Assembly: GCA_025455205.1 (NCBI GenBank)
Contig: JALOMZ010000043.1
Location: forward strand, 1 to 9,025
Source: Chitinophagaceae bacterium
GTDB taxonomy: Bacteria > Bacteroidota > Bacteroidia > Chitinophagales > Chitinophagaceae
Direction of reading: 5' to 3'
Length of the DNA stretch: 9,025 nucleotides
Both the position numbers and the translations under genes were made by a program. Positions 1,930 to 9,025 of this stretch are shown piece by piece. Under the pieces are notes generated by a model. That model saw nothing but the letters and a program-made list of their open reading frames with translations. It did no database searches and was not told where the DNA came from. Position 1 is the stretch's first letter, and each line of letters begins with the position of its first letter.

Positions 1930-1967
1930 AGGCAATCAATGCAATACCTGACGAAAATAGGCAGCTC

Positions 1968-1993
1968 CCATTCGCTGCAGGGGGGACGAATGG
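1968..1993. repeat. 7-bp inverted repeat upstream of GH16
   Basis: CCATTCG at 1968-1974 and CGAATGG at 1987-1993 are perfect reverse complements separated by 12 bases that include the G6 run. The arms overlap the candidate operator and lie 39-64 bp before the GH16 start. It could be part of a protein-binding site or a hairpin in the 5' leader if transcription starts upstream of it. Confidence 0.4.
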
Positions 1994-2023
1994 TTCAGGT
2001 ACAGGGGCAAATCCGCCAATACT
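1980..2023 (-). promoter_or_regulatory. Candidate HTCS-type operator upstream of GH16
   Basis: Read on the minus strand, this segment contains AGTATTGGC (2023 to 2015), ATTTGCCCCT (2012 to 2003) and CTGAACCATTCGTCC (1998 to 1984), ending in a C6 run at 1985-1980. It lies about 50 bp before the GH16 ATG. It aligns with plus-strand 2864-2907 upstream of the second sulfatase with about 33 matches in 43 columns and one gap. AGTATTGGC also recurs exactly at 8753-8761 upstream of the SusC-like gene. ATTTGCCCC and ATTCGTCCC start exactly 21 bp apart. The alignment is seen directly; the operator role is inference. Confidence 0.45.
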
Positions 2024-2042: not shown

Positions 2043-2270
2043 ACACAGAGGTACTCTCACTGGACCATGATCCGCGACGCACAGGTAAAAGTGGGCAGCT
2101 CAAATCCCCGTTTTGCCTGGATAAATACCGATGACCTGAATGATGGCTATGACCGGAGCGGTAAAGCCATCAGCAATGACCTGCACATGTCGGCCGCAGG
2201 GTACATAATCATGGGCAAACGCTTTGCCCGGGAGGCGGTGCGTCTCATCAATGGCAACCTGTTGCAATAA
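2043..2270 (+). pseudogene. C-terminal remnant of SASA/SGNH carbohydrate esterase
   Basis: About 75 codons that read as the end of a carbohydrate acetylesterase of the SASA (sialate O-acetylesterase-like) type. Recognisable segments are WTMIRDAQVKV, AWINTDDLND, then NDLHMSAAGY and MGKRFAREA before the TAA stop at 2268-2270. In this SGNH-fold family the DLH stretch carries the catalytic His near the C-terminus. The N-terminal part with the GDS-like nucleophile block, the Gly and Asn blocks and the signal peptide is absent. The first ATG (2067) would give 67 residues with no signal and no nucleophile. Family-like sequence begins near YSHW (about 2052). Left of about 2023 the sequence instead belongs to the upstream region of the divergent GH16 gene, so the deletion breakpoint lies between these points. 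Full-length relatives would have removed acetyl groups from the same glycan. Family assignment is from motif recall, not a search. Confidence 0.65.
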
Positions 2271-2395
2271 GACAGGGGCTGATTGCTGCAAATAGTGTTG
2301 CCTGTGCAACGCCGGCAAGCATTGCCAGAGGCGCCTCACCCTACCTCATTTTCCTAACACGGGGTTAGCCAAAGGCGGGGACAACCGATAGGATT
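2271..2395. terminator. Gene-free spacer with three adjacent inverted repeats
   Basis: This 125-bp spacer between two converging reading frames has no supportable gene. It contains GTTGC-CTGT-GCAAC at 2297-2310, GGCAA-GCA-TTGCC at 2314-2326 and the perfect palindrome GAGGCGCCTC at 2328-2337, one after another. TTGCC at 2298-2302 could also pair with GGCAA at 2314-2318, so the first two stems are alternatives. There is no T tract. The convergent layout makes a bidirectional transcription barrier the simplest explanation, but that is inference. Confidence 0.35.
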
Positions 2396-2755
2396 TCAAG
2401 GGTATTGAACGTAAACACCTTTGGAGTGGAACCAGGTCCGGCGTGCCGGCAATGTCTTCTCTGTTTCCGGCTGCCAGTCTTTAGGATGACTGAACCCACC
2501 GGGTTGCAGGCCGGCCTGGAAGGCGGCGGCGTCAAAGGGGGAAGCATTCTCAAGCAGGTGGGTGGCAATTTTTTCATACATGCGCCCCGCATCCTGCAAG
2601 GGCAAACGACTGGATGCTGCCGGGAGGGCCTCATTGTCTTTATTCATCAGCAGTTCATCCTCGGGGATGCTTTGTTGGTCCCCCAGGCTCCCGGCAAATA
2701 CTGCCAGCAGCATCGGCACCATCATTTTCCTGATTCGAATAGCATGTTTTCTCAT
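2396..2755 (-). CDS. Small putative exported protein, unknown function
   Basis: A 119-residue reading frame starting at ATG 2753-2755. The N-terminus has a basic stretch (MRKHAIRIRK) followed by a hydrophobic run (MMVPMLLAVFAG), which looks like a signal peptide or anchor, with no clear lipobox. The rest is polar and includes a probable helix around RMYEKIATHLLEN and a C-terminal stretch rich in aromatic residues ending in VYVQYP. No family is recognised. Codon use is GC-rich at third positions like the neighbours, and the start follows a long divergent intergenic region carrying a shared candidate operator, both of which favour a real gene. It could also be the 5' remnant of a longer decayed gene, as the nearby esterase remnant shows this area has lost sequence. 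Opposite-strand frames here are shorter or lack a signal-like N-terminus. Confidence 0.5.
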   Translation of the reverse strand: MRKHAIRIRKMMVPMLLAVFAGSLGDQQSIPEDELLMNKDNEALPAASSRLPLQDAGRMYEKIATHLLENASPFDAAAFQAGLQPGGFSHPKDWQPETEKTLPARRTWFHSKGVYVQYP

Positions 2756-2863: not shown

Positions 2864-2907
2864 GCATTCGGGCATTAGCCCCTCTATCTTGAATGATTTG
2901 TCCCCCC
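2864..2907 (+). promoter_or_regulatory. Candidate HTCS-type operator upstream of second sulfatase
   Basis: This segment includes GCATTCGGGCATTAGCCCCT (2864-2883) and TTGAATGATTTGTCC (2889-2903), ending in a C6 run (2902-2907). The first block matches the corresponding GH16 upstream block at 15 of 20 ungapped positions, and ATT-GTCCCCCC matches at 11 of 12. The element ends about 104 bp before the sulfatase ATG. TATCTTGA at 2885-2892 is a poor relative of the -7 box, so part of the conservation could be promoter rather than operator. Confidence 0.45.
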
Positions 2908-3011
2908 GGCTGACGAAATCAACCCACAACATCAGAGGGAAGCTCGATACTTTGCCTGCACCCAGGCCCGCCTTTTGCAGGCCCCGGATCACGATAGCAG
3001 AAAAACAACAT

Positions 3012-4592
3012 ATGAAAAAACGCCAAGCACGTTTCCCAGGCAAGCCAATGATGCCCCAAGTATTCAGGACCCGTTTCGGAGCCGGTCTGCTTTTATCCCT
3101 TTCGGTCCTGCTGCAGGCCTGCCAACCGCAGGAGCAAAAGCCCGCTAAGCCCAACATCGTCATTTTCTATGTGGACGACCTGGGCTATGGTGACCTGGGA
3201 TGCTATGGAGGCGAGACGGTGCAAACCCCATTTCTCGATAGCCTGGGTAAGGCGGGAATCATTTTTACCGATGCCCACAGCGTAGCGGCCACCTGTACAC
3301 CCTCCCGCTATTCCCTGCTTACCGGCGAGCATGCCTTCCGGAACAAAGCCGAGATATTGCCAGGCGACGCCCCCCTGCTTATTCCGGAAGACAAACCCAC
3401 CCTGCCAGCCATGCTCAAGCGGGCGGGTTACACCACTGCGGTGGTAGGCAAATGGCATTTGGGATTGGGCAATGGCAATGTTGACTGGAACGGCATCGTA
3501 AAACCAGGCCCCCTCGAAATTGGATTCGACTACAGCTTCCTGCTGCCTGCCACCGGCGACCGCGTACCCACGGTTTACCTGGAAAACCACGAGGTAGTGA
3601 ATGCAAGCAAGGATGATCCCATTATGGTAAGCTACAGCCAGAAACTGAGTGGCTACCCCAACGGGTTGGACAGCCCGCAGCTGCTGCGCCAGAAGGCCGA
3701 TACCCAGCACTCCAACACCATTGTCAACGGTATCAGCCGCATCGGGTACATGTCCGGCGGCCGGAAAGCCTTGTGGAGAGATGAAGATTTCCCAGAAGTT
3801 TTTTCCGGCAAAGCCAATGATTTTATTACGAAAAATCAGGATAAGCCCTTCTTCCTGTTCTTCGCCTTCCACGATATTCATGTTCCCCGGGTACCCAATG
3901 AAATGTTCGCAGGCAAATCGCCCCTTGGCCCGCGGGGGGATGCCATTGCGCAAATGGACTGGACTACCCGCCAGGTGGTGGAACACCTTAAAAAGCTGAA
4001 CCTCCTGGAAAACACCCTCATCATTTTCACGAGCGACAACGGACCGGTACTGAATGATGGATATGATGATATGGCAGACAAACTCATTGGTTCGCACAAG
4101 CCGGCAGGCCCCTTCCGCGGCGGAAAGTACAGTGCCTTTGAAGCCGGCACCCGGGTGCCCTTCCTGGTGGCCTGGCCCGGAACCATTAAGCCGGGTACTT
4201 CCCAGGCCCTGATCAGTCAGCTGGACCTCTATCGCTCGCTGGCTGCGCTGGCAGGTGTGCCCCTAACGGGCAATGAGGCCATGGACAGCGAAGACCACCA
4301 CGAGGCCTTGCTGGGCAAAAAGCCGGATGCCCGCGAATGGATGCTGGAAGAATCTTATACGATGTCGGCCCGGCAGGGATCCTGGAAATACATAGCTCCC
4401 ATCCCGGAAAGCAAAAAAGTACCTTCCTTTATGGCCAATAAGGGCGTGGAAAGCGGCCTGGGCAGGGCTCACCAGTTGTATGACCTGTCTAAGGATCCGG
4501 GAGAACAGAAGAACCTGGCCGACAGCCTGCCCGACATGGTGCAGCGTATGCAACAATATATAGAACGCATTGTCAATAAAGGGAGTAAATAA
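3012..4592 (+). CDS. S1-family sulfatase, predicted lipoprotein
   Basis: A complete formylglycine-dependent sulfatase of 526 residues. I chose ATG 3012, preceded by an A-rich stretch. A longer in-frame start at 2856 would translate the conserved upstream element and bury the signal sequence. Residues 20-36 are hydrophobic, ending L-L-Q-A before Cys37, so a lipoprotein attached to a membrane facing the periplasm or cell surface is likely. Active-site residues: Asp55-Asp56 (VDDLGYGD), Cys95 in ATCTPSRYSLLTGEH (formylglycine), Lys147 and His149 (GKWHLG), His287 and His290 (FHDIH), Asp342-Asn343 (FTSDNGP) and Lys372 in GGKYSAFEAGTR. HQLYDLSKDPGEQKNL near residue 487 is the usual C-terminal sulfatase block. 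The middle stretch NGISRIGYMSGG reminds me of the S1_15 group, which acts on 6-O-sulfated galactose or GalNAc, but that is recall and weak. It precedes the HTCS gene by 54 bp on the same strand, probably in one operon. It differs clearly from the sulfatase at the window start, so the two probably remove different sulfates. Confidence 0.95.
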   Translation: MKKRQARFPGKPMMPQVFRTRFGAGLLLSLSVLLQACQPQEQKPAKPNIVIFYVDDLGYGDLGCYGGETVQTPFLDSLGKAGIIFTDAHSVAATCTPSRYSLLTGEHAFRNKAEILPGDAPLLIPEDKPTLPAMLKRAGYTTAVVGKWHLGLGNGNVDWNGIVKPGPLEIGFDYSFLLPATGDRVPTVYLENHEVVNASKDDPIMVSYSQKLSGYPNGLDSPQLLRQKADTQHSNTIVNGISRIGYMSGGRKALWRDEDFPEVFSGKANDFITKNQDKPFFLFFAFHDIHVPRVPNEMFAGKSPLGPRGDAIAQMDWTTRQVVEHLKKLNLLENTLIIFTSDNGPVLNDGYDDMADKLIGSHKPAGPFRGGKYSAFEAGTRVPFLVAWPGTIKPGTSQALISQLDLYRSLAALAGVPLTGNEAMDSEDHHEALLGKKPDAREWMLEESYTMSARQGSWKYIAPIPESKKVPSFMANKGVESGLGRAHQLYDLSKDPGEQKNLADSLPDMVQRMQQYIERIVNKGSK

Positions 4593-4646: not shown

Positions 4647-7600
4647 GTGAAAAAAACAACCGGACACATATCGTCCCTGTTGCGCATGCTTTGCTGCTTG
4701 CCCATTGCCCTGTGGCTCTTTCCTGCCCGGGTTTGCGCACAAGAAGAGTTTTCGATAGACGTGCTGGATGTGCGCAAGGGATTGCTCAGCAACTTCGTCA
4801 CCAAAACCATCAGCGACGACAAGCAGTTCCGGTATTTTGCCACCGAAGCCGGCATCTCCCGCTACGATGGCTATAGATTCAGGCATTACCGCCCTTCGCC
4901 CAATAGCCCGGGGTTGGTGAATGAGAACATTGAAACCCTGCTGACCGCAAAAGAGGGGCATGTATGGATTGGCACCAAAACAGGAGGCCTCAGCCGCCTG
5001 GATGTGAAGACACAGCAGCTGGAAAACTGGAATGATGTATTCAGCAGCATTTCCAGCAAGCCCCTGCGCATTGTATCGCTGGCAGAAGACCTCAAAGGAA
5101 ATGTATGGGTGGGTTCCTGGAATATGGGATGCTTTAAGGTGGACCCGAAGCAGCGCAAGGTGGTAGAACATTTTCCGTCCACCAGGCCCATCTACAGCCT
5201 GCTGAGCGACACCCGGGGCACAGTTTGGTACACCGATGGCACCACTCTCTGCACGTATAAGAATGAAGATGGTTCACTCCAACGGTTCACGCAGCCATTC
5301 AATCTGTACCAGCTGGCGGAGGATACCGCCCGTAAACGCGTGTGGATGGTGGGCAATATCGGCGCCAACGATGTGCGGCTGGCCTACTATGACCAGATGC
5401 AGGGACAGGTGACAGAAGTACCCACCCGGCTGCAAGCCCGCTTTGTTTCCTCCCTGGCCATCGACCAGAAGATGCGCGTATGGCTGGGCAGTTGGGGCGA
5501 CGGTCTGTATGTAAGCGATCCGGCCGTGAGCAGTTTCCACAAAGTAAACACCACCGGATTCAATGGCCCCGTGCGTAATACCAACCACGACGCCATCACA
5601 AACATTTATATCGACAAGCACGGCATTGCATGGTTGTGTACCGCGTATGGCGGCGTACTGGTACTCTATCCCAACAAGGGATTCCGAAACCTCAGCCATC
5701 CGCAGGTGGCCAAAGCGCAGGATAATAACATTATCTCTATCGGCAACGGCAACAACAACAGTTTGCTGTTGGGAAGCATATCGAGCGGACTGTCTGAAGT
5801 TGCCGACCTGCAGCAACCCGCCTTCAGGAACATGGGTAATATCCCGCCGGTGCGCATCAACCAGATCTATGCCAGAAATGGCAGGCAGTTTCTGGCTACC
5901 AATGAAGGCTTCTATGTTTTCCAACAGGGATGGAACAGCCAGCCGGCGCGCTATCTCCGCCAGGAAAAGGTCACGGCCATTTTACTGAGCGGCACCAATG
6001 ATTTGTGGGTGGGCACACAGCAGCATGGCCTCAAGAAAATGACGCTGGGTGCGGCACCCGATACGGGACAAATCACCAGCTTCGGCGAATTTGCCCCTGC
6101 TCCCTACCAGATCGAAAACGACCGGATCAACAAACTGGTGGAAGACGCGGGGGGCAGGCTTTGGGTAGCCACGCATGCGGGCATCAACCTGTGGGACCCC
6201 GGCAAGAAACAGTTCCGGTCACACCGGGAATTGGTTGGCGAGAAAATGCCCCGCATCATCATCCATGATATGCTGGTCAGCAGCAACCATATGTACCTGG
6301 CCACCCCCAATGGACTTTACAAATTTGCCATCACCCGTGGCAAGCAAAACTCTCCGGTGCTGGAATTGGTGAAGCACTACAGCGAAGGAGAAGAACTGGT
6401 TAACCAGTTTGTGTGCGCGCTGCAGGAAGACCGCAATGGCAACATATGGTTCTCCACTACCACAGGCATTGCCCGGCTCAACGGCCATACCGGCCTGCTG
6501 CATCATTTTGGCAAGCAGGACGGCGTGCAAACCAATGCCTTCTATATCAATTCTTCTTACCGCGATACCCAGGGGCTGCTCTACTTTGGCGGCGACAACG
6601 GTCTGTTGTACTTTAACCCGGAGGCTGTAAGCACACAGTACGAGAAGCCCTCCATTGTGATGACGGGGCTGTTCATCAACAACCAACCGGTGGAAGCAGA
6701 TGCGGTGGCATCAAAGAACCAGATACTTCCGCAGGCCATTCAATACCTCGATGACATCCGGCTGGGCTATGACAATAATGATATCGCCATTCAATTTGCC
6801 GCCAACGATTTCCTCGGCACAGAGAACATCCGGTATGCATACAAACTTTCGCCCCAGGATAAAGAATGGATTTCACTCCGCGACAAAAATGAAGTGTCCC
6901 TCACCGGTCTGAAGCCGGGCAAATACCGACTGGCCATAAGGGCCAACCGGAACAACCAGGGCTGGGGTAATCCCACCGAAATAGAACTGCGTATTGCCTA
7001 TCCCCCATGGCTGGCCTGGTATGCCTGGGTGGTTTATGCACTGCTGGGTGCTGCCATCCTGGCAACCATCCGGAGGATCAGGCTGCGCCAGCAGAAATTG
7101 AAGGAGGAACTGCAGCGGGTGCAATTTGAAAAAGAAAAGGAACACGAGATCAATGAAGCCAAGATCAACTTCTTCACCAATATCTCGCATGAGTTCAGGA
7201 CACCACTTACCCTGATACTCAGTCCCTGTACAGAATTGCTGGCCGATGACCACCTGACTGCCGCAAACAAGCATAAAATTTCCCTGGTGAAGTCGAATGC
7301 GCAGAAACTGCTTCGGCTGGTAAACCAACTGCTCGACTTCCGGAAATCAGAACACGGACTGCTGACCCTGCGCACCCATAAGGAAGATATCCGCAAAATG
7401 GTGCAGTTGCTGGTGAATGATTTTGCGCCGGCAGCCAATGCCAAGAAGATTGAACTGTCGTTCAACGCCGAACCTGGCGACATCAACGCTGATGTGGACA
7501 AGGCCCAGCTGGAGATGGCCATTAATAACCTGTTGAGCAATGCCATCAAGTTTACCCCTGCCGGCGGACGGGTGAGTGTCAAACTGAATGCACAACCCAA

Positions 7601-8720
7601 CGCCCTCAGCCTGCAGGTAAGCGACAGCGGAATTGGCATTGCACCGGAGCACCTCGACAGGATATTCAACCGCTTCTATCAGGTGCCCGGCACCAACGGA
7701 CAGGGCGGCGGCAGCGGCATCGGTCTGGCTTTTGCCAAAAACATCATAGAACTGCACCATGGCAGTATAGGCGTGCAAAGCACCCCCGGAAAAGGTACCA
7801 GCTTCACCATACAACTGCCCCTGCAACAGGCGGCAGACAAACTCAGGGAACCGGACCTGGCCGACGATGGACAGGAATATGAAGCAGCAGACCTGGCCGG
7901 TACCCAGCCCCCGCAGGAAGGCCAGTCCAAAAGCGCCAAAAAACAGGTAGTGCTGGTAGTGGACGACAATGCCGATATCCGGCAATACCTGGCCGGCCTG
8001 TTGCAGGAAGAGTATGAAGTGCTGGAGGCTGAAGACGGATCTGTAGGTCACAAAATAGCCGTGGAAGCGATGCCTGATCTGGTGATCAGCGATGTGATGA
8101 TGCCTCAGATGAATGGTATTGACCTCTGCGCAGCACTCAAGCAGAATATGGCCACCTCCCACATCCCCATTATCCTGCTCACCGCCCGGGCCTCCGAAGC
8201 CTATGAACTGCAGGGTCTGCAAACCGGCGCCGACGATTATATCGCCAAACCTTTCAATCCGCTCATTGTACAGATGCGTGTTCGCAATATGCTGGAAAAC
8301 CGGGCCAAACTGAAGGCCCACTACCTGAAAAAGGTTCGGTTTGAACCCGAAACGTCACCCGGTGAAAAGCCCGACAACCTCGATGATATTTTCCTGAACA
8401 ACGCTATAGAACTCGTAAACAGCAACCTGCAGAACGAAAACCTCGGCATCGAGATGATGGTAGACCAGCTGTTCATGAGCCAGAGCACCCTGTTCAGAAA
8501 AATAAAATCCCTAACCGGCCTATCCATCACGGGTTTCATCCGGGCCCTGCGTATTAAGAAGGCGGCCCAACTGATCCTGGAAACCAATATGAAAATGACC
8601 GACGTGGCCTATGAGGTAGGCTTCAACGATTACAAGTACTTCAAAAAATCATTTCAGCAGCAGTTTGGCTGCCTGCCCTCGGAATACCGCGAAAAGCAAT
8701 CGCAAAACCTTCAGGGTTGA
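4647..8720 (+). CDS. Hybrid two-component system regulator (HTCS)
   Basis: A 1357-residue one-protein sensor and transcription regulator. GTG 4647 is the preferred start, giving MKKTTG and a signal peptide ending V-C-A before Gln32. TTG 4641 adds two residues; ATG 4686 would remove the positive charges. Residues 33 to about 665 are a periplasmic propeller with about 14 Reg_prop-like repeats (e.g. HVWIGTKTGGLSRLD, RVWLGSWGDGLYVSD, RLWVATHAGINLWD). A Y_Y_Y domain covers about 720-785 and a membrane helix 788-808. The histidine kinase has its H-box at NISHEFRTPLT (His848), N-box at 960-970 (NNLLSNAIKFT), DSGIGI (Asp993) and GGGSGIGL (1020-1027). The receiver domain (about 1100-1216) has Asp1106-Asp1107, phospho-acceptor Asp1149 and Lys1201. 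An AraC-type HTH domain spans about 1247-1352. No key residue is missing. Such regulators bind an oligosaccharide of the target glycan and activate the PUL. Position between a sulfatase and a SusC-like gene fits control of this locus. Confidence 0.97.
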   Translation: MKKTTGHISSLLRMLCCLPIALWLFPARVCAQEEFSIDVLDVRKGLLSNFVTKTISDDKQFRYFATEAGISRYDGYRFRHYRPSPNSPGLVNENIETLLTAKEGHVWIGTKTGGLSRLDVKTQQLENWNDVFSSISSKPLRIVSLAEDLKGNVWVGSWNMGCFKVDPKQRKVVEHFPSTRPIYSLLSDTRGTVWYTDGTTLCTYKNEDGSLQRFTQPFNLYQLAEDTARKRVWMVGNIGANDVRLAYYDQMQGQVTEVPTRLQARFVSSLAIDQKMRVWLGSWGDGLYVSDPAVSSFHKVNTTGFNGPVRNTNHDAITNIYIDKHGIAWLCTAYGGVLVLYPNKGFRNLSHPQVAKAQDNNIISIGNGNNNSLLLGSISSGLSEVADLQQPAFRNMGNIPPVRINQIYARNGRQFLATNEGFYVFQQGWNSQPARYLRQEKVTAILLSGTNDLWVGTQQHGLKKMTLGAAPDTGQITSFGEFAPAPYQIENDRINKLVEDAGGRLWVATHAGINLWDPGKKQFRSHRELVGEKMPRIIIHDMLVSSNHMYLATPNGLYKFAITRGKQNSPVLELVKHYSEGEELVNQFVCALQEDRNGNIWFSTTTGIARLNGHTGLLHHFGKQDGVQTNAFYINSSYRDTQGLLYFGGDNGLLYFNPEAVSTQYEKPSIVMTGLFINNQPVEADAVASKNQILPQAIQYLDDIRLGYDNNDIAIQFAANDFLGTENIRYAYKLSPQDKEWISLRDKNEVSLTGLKPGKYRLAIRANRNNQGWGNPTEIELRIAYPPWLAWYAWVVYALLGAAILATIRRIRLRQQKLKEELQRVQFEKEKEHEINEAKINFFTNISHEFRTPLTLILSPCTELLADDHLTAANKHKISLVKSNAQKLLRLVNQLLDFRKSEHGLLTLRTHKEDIRKMVQLLVNDFAPAANAKKIELSFNAEPGDINADVDKAQLEMAINNLLSNAIKFTPAGGRVSVKLNAQPNALSLQVSDSGIGIAPEHLDRIFNRFYQVPGTNGQGGGSGIGLAFAKNIIELHHGSIGVQSTPGKGTSFTIQLPLQQAADKLREPDLADDGQEYEAADLAGTQPPQEGQSKSAKKQVVLVVDDNADIRQYLAGLLQEEYEVLEAEDGSVGHKIAVEAMPDLVISDVMMPQMNGIDLCAALKQNMATSHIPIILLTARASEAYELQGLQTGADDYIAKPFNPLIVQMRVRNMLENRAKLKAHYLKKVRFEPETSPGEKPDNLDDIFLNNAIELVNSNLQNENLGIEMMVDQLFMSQSTLFRKIKSLTGLSITGFIRALRIKKAAQLILETNMKMTDVAYEVGFNDYKYFKKSFQQQFGCLPSEYREKQSQNLQG

Positions 8721-8807
8721 TCCATTTTGACCGAATCCCCCCCCTGTTTGACAGTATTGGCCCCGTGTTACCCTTCCGGATTGCCCAATTTTGAAAGAGG
8801 AATAGCG
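8717..8807 (+). promoter_or_regulatory. Candidate operator array upstream of the SusC-like gene
   Basis: The spacer between the HTCS stop (8718-8720) and the next start (8851) contains TTGATCCATTTTGACC (8717-8732), a C8 run (8737-8744), TGTTTGAC (8745-8752), AGTATTGGCCCC (8753-8764), TGTTACCC (8766-8773) and ATTTTGA (8788-8794). TTTGAC recurs exactly 21 bp apart (8726 and 8747). TGTT recurs 21 bp apart (8745 and 8766), and a looser fourth TTTGA lies at 8790. CCATTTTGAC matches the minus-strand site at 2850-2841, and AGTATTGGC matches the GH16 upstream site. Direct repeats on one helix face at about two turns suit AraC-type DNA binding. CAATTTTG (8786-8793) is one base from a -7 box. Operator function is inference. 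Confidence 0.5.
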
Positions 8808-8850: not shown

Positions 8851-9025
8851 ATGAAGGGTACATTTTTAAGGAAAAGTGGAGCCATTGCCTTCGCTTTTTT
8901 ATGCCTGACCATGTTTGCCCAGGCGCAGAATCAGGATGTACGCATTACCGGCACCATCCTGCTGGCCGGCGACAATAAGCCTGCTGAATCAGCAACCATC
9001 CAAATCCTGCCCGGAAACCGAAGCG
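8851..9025 (+). CDS. Exported protein start, probable SusC/TonB-dependent receptor
   Basis: Only the first 58 codons are in the window, running open past its end. The ATG at 8851 begins a clear signal peptide with a basic MKGTFLRK start, a hydrophobic core around AIAFAFLCLTMF and an A-Q-A cleavage site near residue 25. The mature start, QDVRITGTILLAGDNKPAESATIQI, resembles the CarboxypepD_reg-like (carboxypeptidase D regulatory) beta-sandwich that opens SusC-type and other TonB-dependent outer-membrane receptors in Bacteroidota. Downstream placement after an HTCS is the usual SusC position. The sequence is not the canonical VTGTVTD form, so a non-SusC TonB protein or another exported protein with this domain remains possible. 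It carries the candidate operator array in its upstream region. Confidence 0.6.
   Translation, partial: MKGTFLRKSGAIAFAFLCLTMFAQAQNQDVRITGTILLAGDNKPAESATIQILPGNRS

Follow-up and report, generated by a model that had tools for sequence, protein, structure and literature searches.

In Bacteroides thetaiotaomicron, predicted HTCS operators take the form of direct repeats, spaced 21 bp apart on average (passages of Ravcheev et al. 2013, PMC3878776). The operator of HTCS_Man comprises two 16-bp sites and a 5-bp spacer; in the same passages, the repeats are read as sites for dimers whose monomers sit two turns apart along one side of the DNA.

The window examined here is a 9,025-bp stretch of Chitinophagaceae bacterium DNA (assembly GCA_025455205.1, contig JALOMZ010000043.1). 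It encodes a complete HTCS (sensor, kinase, receiver and AraC HTH by Pfam) beside candidate operator sites. These are tandem repeats of 21-22 bp, located 21-23 bp before a TAnnTTTG-like box; very probably they are binding sites at which the AraC domain of the adjacent HTCS would activate transcription. The type of site is already known from predicted HTCS operators of gut Bacteroides, and the window is a new example. Like the B. thetaiotaomicron operators described in passages of PMC3878776, the sites are direct repeats whose two copies are separated by about two helix turns, lie before susC-like and enzyme genes of an HTCS-encoding locus, and are kept between orthologous loci. They differ in the constant distance to a -7 box, which was not found stated in those passages of PMC3878776. 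They also come from another family, have a C-rich half-site, ATTnGyCCC (the comparison is one of arrangement, not of half-site letters), and include three half-sites at one promoter.

AraC-type class II activator sites (e.g. araI2 of E. coli) are tandem direct half-sites about 21 bp apart, of which the proximal one abuts the -33/-35 region. In the window, the proximal half-site likewise adjoins the -33/-35 region, and its distance from the -7/-10 box is constant. The two systems differ in the regulator, a membrane-bound HTCS here and a soluble sugar-binding AraC protein there, and in the box, a Bacteroidota -7 box here and a -10 box there. SusR-type operators are also direct repeats before glycan genes, but the centre distance required for them is 67 or 77 bp according to passages of PMC3878776; this distance is 21-22 bp here, and a SusR-type operator was rejected.

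A literature search of titles and abstract starts returned no description of an HTCS operator in Chitinophagaceae; the same search, with passages included, returned none of a fixed distance from an HTCS site to the -7 box. The constant -7 box distance, common to sites near HTCS genes and near stand-alone AraC genes, may be new.

The sulfatase/GH16 locus

The window is part of a 2.36 Mb assembly that is 61.67% complete (about 40% of the genome is missing). On the minus strand it carries a GH16 glycoside hydrolase gene (1081-1935) and the sulfatase gene S1 (2-982), which is cut by the contig end. On the plus strand are the second sulfatase gene, S2 (3012-4592), the HTCS gene (4647-8720) and the start of a susC-like gene (8851-9025), also cut by the contig end. 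GH16, both sulfatases and the HTCS are identified by Pfam matches; those of the HTCS cover a propeller sensor, Y_Y_Y, HisKA, HATPase, receiver and AraC-type HTH (residues 1273-1349, about 8463-8693). The 58-residue susC-like stub has no Pfam match; the gene is named by synteny with two orthologous loci, in which the susC-like genes were named by eye.

From orientation and short gaps, GH16-S1 and S2-HTCS are predicted to be co-transcribed units, with GH16 and S2 as the respective first genes. The likely start of S2 is ATG 3012, which precedes a lipoprotein-like signal (read by eye). Given this start, both copies of the element discussed below lie outside likely genes, as the first-pass annotation of this DNA had stated. 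An alternative in-frame start, ATG 2856, would place the 2864-2907 copy within an N-terminal extension of S2.

Tandem half-sites before GH16, S2 and susC

The first-pass annotation had paired 2864-2907 (plus strand) with 1980-2022 (minus strand), counting about 33 matches in 43 columns with one gap. The present alignment has 32 identities in 42 columns and one single-base gap, and thus agrees closely. Its local alignment score is 24, compared with a mean of 11.9 and a maximum of 18 for shuffled sequence; none of 300 dinucleotide-shuffled pairs reaches 24, which bears out the view that unrelated intergenic DNA would align less well. Fifteen region pairs were compared in all, and one other beats all shuffles: the S2 upstream region against its own reverse complement. 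This was rejected as a second similarity since it is a trivial self-overlap. The 2.36 Mb assembly has exactly two occurrences of the core of the element, TGAANNATTNGTCCCC, namely those in the GH16 and S2 copies.

The similarity reflects a half-site, ATTnGyCCC, which is directly repeated with 0 mismatches at 21 bp before GH16 and at 22 bp before S2; with the upstream box, the unit is approximately yTGAnnnATTnGyCCC. The shared blocks named in the first-pass annotation are real as similarity, but two of them are copies of one half-site. Before GH16, the candidate tandem operator extends over 1980-2021 (minus strand), with half-site 1 at 2004-2012 and half-site 2 at 1983-1991. Before S2, the reported element at 2864-2907 (plus strand) has half-sites at 2874-2882 (1) and 2896-2904 (2) and is the distal part of a three-half-site array. 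Half-site 3 (AATCAACCC, 2917-2925) is weaker, with 5 of 8 specified positions; together with half-site 2 it forms a candidate promoter-proximal operator at 2889-2926. The GH16 copy is a proximal pair; the 2864-2907 copy corresponds to half-sites 1 and 2 of the array, in which the proximal pair is 2 and 3.

A two-box matrix was trained on the reported GH16 and S2 sites alone and run over the upstream regions. It finds a third candidate tandem operator, overlooked in the first-pass annotation, before the susC-like gene (8726-8767, plus strand; half-sites 8735-8743 and 8756-8764). This copy, in which TTGAC is repeated at 21 bp, scores 26.7, and none of 300 shuffles is as good; the susC promoter also takes third place in a two-strand scan of the whole window. 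No site is found with this matrix upstream of S1 (269 of 300 shuffles as good) or in the 54-bp S2-HTCS gap (292 of 300), and no tandem site upstream of the small ORF at 2396-2755 (108 of 300). Sites before GH16, S2 and susC, with none before S1 or the HTCS gene, amount to one site per likely transcription unit.

Conservation at orthologous loci

Two orthologous loci were found among the HTCS matches, and conservation rests on these two: L020 of Flavihumibacter sp. UBA7668 (HTCS 59% identical) and L021 of MAG PH2015_14S_48_7 (62%), whose site coordinates are those of G344 C214 (L099). The order S2-HTCS-susC-susD is kept in both, and L021 also has GH16 and S1 (translations, read by eye). The motif, which the first-pass annotation had expected to be conserved if it were functional, is present in both. 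At all three loci, the direct repeats have a period of 21 or 22 bp.

In two-strand scans with the window-trained matrix, the promoters of S2 (rank 1) and susC (rank 2) come out best in L020 (23.9 kb), as do those of susC (rank 1) and GH16 (rank 2) in L021 (19.5 kb). The top places in the whole-locus scans of the window, L020 and L021 are all correctly oriented. In a held-out test, each locus was ranked with a matrix trained on 4 to 6 sites from the remaining two loci. Ranks 1-3 in the window are then GH16, S2 (2896, spacing 21 bp) and susC; ranks 1-2 in L020 are susC and S2; in L021, GH16 has rank 1, susC rank 3 (beaten by one unrelated position besides GH16) and S2 rank 7. Overall, 6 of 7 sites rank 1-3 in their locus.

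In L021, the site before S2 is degenerate (32 of 300 shuffles do as well). A model built without it places it directly below the seven training sites (11.8 bits, E 0.019). The pair that begins at 2896 before S2 in the window is present in L020 (8314), and L021 keeps its first half-site. In L020, a weaker site precedes the divergent GH gene (Glyco_hydro_cc) at 8238-8268 (minus strand; 7 of 300 shuffles do as well); the -7-like box that follows at 22 bp has 4 of 6 positions.

In the DNA-binding domain, the orthologous HTCSs share 76-81% identity with the window HTCS. The HTH stretches FMSQSTL[FY]RKIKSLTG and GFNDYKYFKKSFQQQFG are identical in the three proteins save for one F/Y difference.

Distance to the -7-like box

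The -7 consensus of Bacteroidota sigma-A is TAnnTTTG, with TTTG near -33 (passages of PMC7366714); the box is placed at -12 to -5 (passages of PMC9723704). The -33 element is poorly defined, and in Flavobacterium johnsoniae it could not be identified (work cited in passages of PMC7366714).

All three candidate promoters of the window have a -7-like box downstream of the proximal pair. Before GH16, TATTTTCG (1952-1959, minus strand) lies 23 bp after half-site 2 and has 5 of 6 TAnnTTTG positions. Before S2, TACTTTGC (2948-2955, plus strand) lies 22 bp after half-site 3 and has 4 of 6. Before susC, CAATTTTG (8786-8793, plus strand) lies 21 bp after half-site 2 and has 5 of 6. Like all -7 boxes in this analysis, these are sequence matches and not mapped promoters.

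Across the window, L020 and L021, a -7-like box is found 21-23 bp past the second half-site in 8 of 8 promoters. Four boxes have 5 of 6 positions and four have 4 of 6, giving 36 of 48; none of 2000 shuffle sets reaches this score at any offset, although the test is not blind, as the register at S2 and the inclusion of the L021 S2 site were chosen after the distances had been seen by eye. The 3-bp offset windows that start outside 19-22 score at most 23, compared with 36. The position of the box and a distance of 21-24 bp mean that the proximal half-site ends about where a -33 element would begin.

The two stretches paired in the first-pass annotation are not equivalent in this respect; their registers relative to the -7-like box differ. 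Before S2, only the pair at 2896-2926 has the box distance, which suggests that the working pair would be half-sites 2 and 3 (2896-2926) rather than the reported 2864-2907.

The S2 boxes of the window (TACTTTGC) and of L020 (TAAATTGC, 22 bp past the second half-site) fit TAnnTTGY better than TAnnTTTG; the window box fits it exactly. TAnnTTGY is the SM5 motif of Flavobacterium psychrophilum (passages of PMC9723704). The S2 unit might use another sigma factor.

Genome and family scans

A 42-position sequence model, R1, was built from seven sites. In the window's genome it reports 3 places at E<=10, all in the window (150 of 217 first-look candidates scored). R1 contains the three window sites, so that their own scores (29.2 bits for GH16 and 26.8 bits for susC) are circular and it is the absence of other places that counts. 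The first-pass annotation had named occurrence before many unrelated genes as an outcome that would speak against the motif; no site is reported elsewhere in this 62% complete genome. In G344, where 150 of 390 candidates were scored, R1 reports the genome's own two sites and one weak place of 15.2 bits, whose locus includes an ABC-transporter-like frame.

The R1 scan was extended to 394 family genomes, with at most 16 candidates scored per genome. Beyond the window's genome and G344, it gives 4 weak matches (L150-L153, E 0.002-0.018), compared with about eight expected by chance at the same cut-off. One of them, L152, precedes a susC-like gene; an HTCS lies about 5 kb beyond.

The same 394 genomes were searched for ATTTGYCCC pairs at spacings from 11 to 41 bp; this pattern does not match the window's own sites, where the fourth base varies. 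There are 24 pairs, compared with 22 in a reversed control, hence no overall excess. The spacings are 11 bp (four pairs), 15 (one), 16 (three), 18 (four), 21 (three), 22 (three), 25, 35, 38 and 39 (one each) and 41 (two). A spacing of 21 or 22 bp, that is 2 of 31 possible spacings, accounts for 6 of the 24 pairs and stands out, as does the gene context, which was examined at 20 of the 24 loci. An earlier family pattern, in which the half-site had one extra C, missed the window sites and found L007-L009, which ATTTGYCCC also finds.

Twenty family loci with homologues of S2 were taken for comparison; two are the window and the G344 locus. None of the 18 others (4.4-4.5 kb each) reaches the window scores of 36.6, 36.6 and 26.7 with the window-trained matrix. 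Three of them, L134, L128 and L133, score 18.5-21.2, on a level with the L020 and L021 sites (19.4-19.8); raw matrix scores are not decisive by themselves. The site-like sequence of L133 (3135-3165, minus strand; 21.2, or 9.3 bits with R1) is immediately downstream of the sulfatase homologue and directed back towards it.

Sites near other HTCS and AraC genes

Several of the pairs found in the family are located near regulator genes. The L110 and L112 sites are about 260 bp past HTCS genes, and the L108 site is about 3 kb from an AraC-type match. The L102 and L114 sites reach into the 3' ends of stand-alone AraC genes (HTH_18 matches), so that the first half-site is partly coding.

In both L102 and L114, which belong to two family genomes, ATTTGTCCC is repeated at 21 bp (1501-1530 in each) at the junction of the stand-alone AraC-type gene and an SDR oxidoreductase-like gene (by eye). 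A -7-like box follows 22 bp on, with 6 of 6 and 5 of 6 positions respectively.

The box distance was also determined at six further sites that have an AraC-type match in the same locus and were not picked by box distance; these comprise five of the six 21/22-bp pattern matches and one of the four weak R1 matches. The box is at 22-24 bp in 6 of 6, with 31 of 36 positions, a score reached by 0 of 2000 shuffles. When the four dropped sites (L118, L150, L151 and L153) are included, the box is at 22-24 bp in 8 of 10. L150 and L153 have it at 23-24 bp, with 5 of 6 and 6 of 6 positions; there is no box at L118, and L151 has 4 of 6 positions only, at 25 bp.

A sequence-free check for 21-bp repeats was made on 18 susC upstream regions; for one of them (L155), no HTCS was found. 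The highest value is that of lag 21 (z 3.9), compared with z 2.5 for lag 18. Without the four loci already used, lag 21 (z 2.5) and lag 18 (z 2.4) do not separate; 2 of the 5 strong lag-21 cases are loci already used.

Probable regulator and proposed mechanism

Three genes (GH16, S2 and the susC-like gene) carry the same paired tag, and the locus's own sugar-sensing regulator is its likely, if putative, binder. The first-pass annotation had proposed either an HTCS binding site or a promoter common to the locus; the former option is favoured, with the fixed distance to a promoter-like box in addition.

It is improbable that the sites belong instead to another AraC-type regulator encoded elsewhere. 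The ATTTGTCCC pairs at 21 bp, found at the stand-alone AraC/SDR junctions of two family genomes, do mean that the half-site is not peculiar to HTCSs. However, the only sites reported in the window's genome fall in the HTCS-encoding locus, and sites recur at both orthologous loci beside orthologous HTCSs with near-identical HTH stretches.

There is very little chance that the element is a stronger form of the ordinary Bacteroidota sigma-A promoter (-33/-7) that works without a dedicated activator. Such a promoter would account for a -7-like box at a fixed distance past the site, but two half-sites 21 bp apart extend well past the -33 element; in addition, the motif was found at only one locus of the 62% complete genome, unlike what a housekeeping promoter would show.

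Slimmer still is the prospect of a recent duplication, in which the GH16 and S2 copies would derive from one promoter segment and have no common regulator. These two copies are the most alike, and their alignment runs a few bases past the repeat. Against this, the spacing is 21 bp in one and 22 bp in the other, their registers to the -7 box differ, and the skeleton is retained in the diverged susC copy and in the copies of two other species.

It is scarcely credible that the element belongs to a leader RNA or some other RNA structure: it does lie about 50-150 bp before start codons, but upstream of the -7-like boxes and hence not transcribed from them, and an Rfam search of the window at gathering score gives 0 matches.

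With the adjacent HTCS as activator, each of the two receiver-AraC heads of one phosphorylated dimer would bind one half-site, both on one face of the DNA. With a box start at -12, the half-site centres would be near -39 and -60. The downstream head would then lie just upstream of the -33 region, where it could contact sigma or RNA polymerase and so replace a good -33 element. One site would serve each unit: GH16-S1, S2-HTCS, and susC onward. The S2 site would also give positive autoregulation of the HTCS, since the scan of the 54-bp gap ahead of the HTCS gene finds no site there. An S/CHIP-DK contact motif has been reported (passages of PMC11253607); its SHIP part is present in the receiver sequence of the window HTCS.

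The likely regulator, operator and promoters can thus be assigned to a sulfatase/GH16 locus from sequence alone, in an organism known only by an incomplete assembly. The rule of a 21-bp tandem repeat ending 21-24 bp before a -7 box is testable and could be used to seek HTCS-controlled promoters outside Bacteroides. An activator half-site in the -33 place is also one way to account in part for the poorly defined -33 element. Tentatively, the arrangement may be a general promoter grammar of Bacteroidota AraC and HTCS regulators: a half-site, 21-22 bp, a half-site, 21-24 bp, and TAnnTTTG, with the proximal half-site replacing the -33 element. It would be common to membrane-bound HTCSs and soluble AraC proteins; if true, activated promoters and the regulator that owns them could be read from DNA.

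Other observations

Two small frames lie between the GH16 and S2 genes. The 119-residue ORF at 2396-2755 (minus strand) has no Pfam or NCBIfam match. Between GH16 and this ORF, 2071-2271 (plus strand) is an open frame of about 67-73 residues that is protein-like, with the C-terminal sequence NDLHMSAAGYIIMGKRFAREAVRLINGNLLQ. It has no match above the Pfam cut-off and none in NCBIfam; the only matches are weak ones to PDB chains named Cake (E 0.0094). The frame presumably resembles the end of an SGNH-type esterase and is perhaps the remnant of a longer gene.

Repeats of ATTTGTCCC at 11 bp, or one helix turn, are found in four cases in three genomes (L113, L115, L116 and L120). In L115 and L120, the repeat is located between an ORF ending in CIGK, presumably MnmE-like, and a small cysteine-rich ORF; this place is perhaps the edge of an integrated element.
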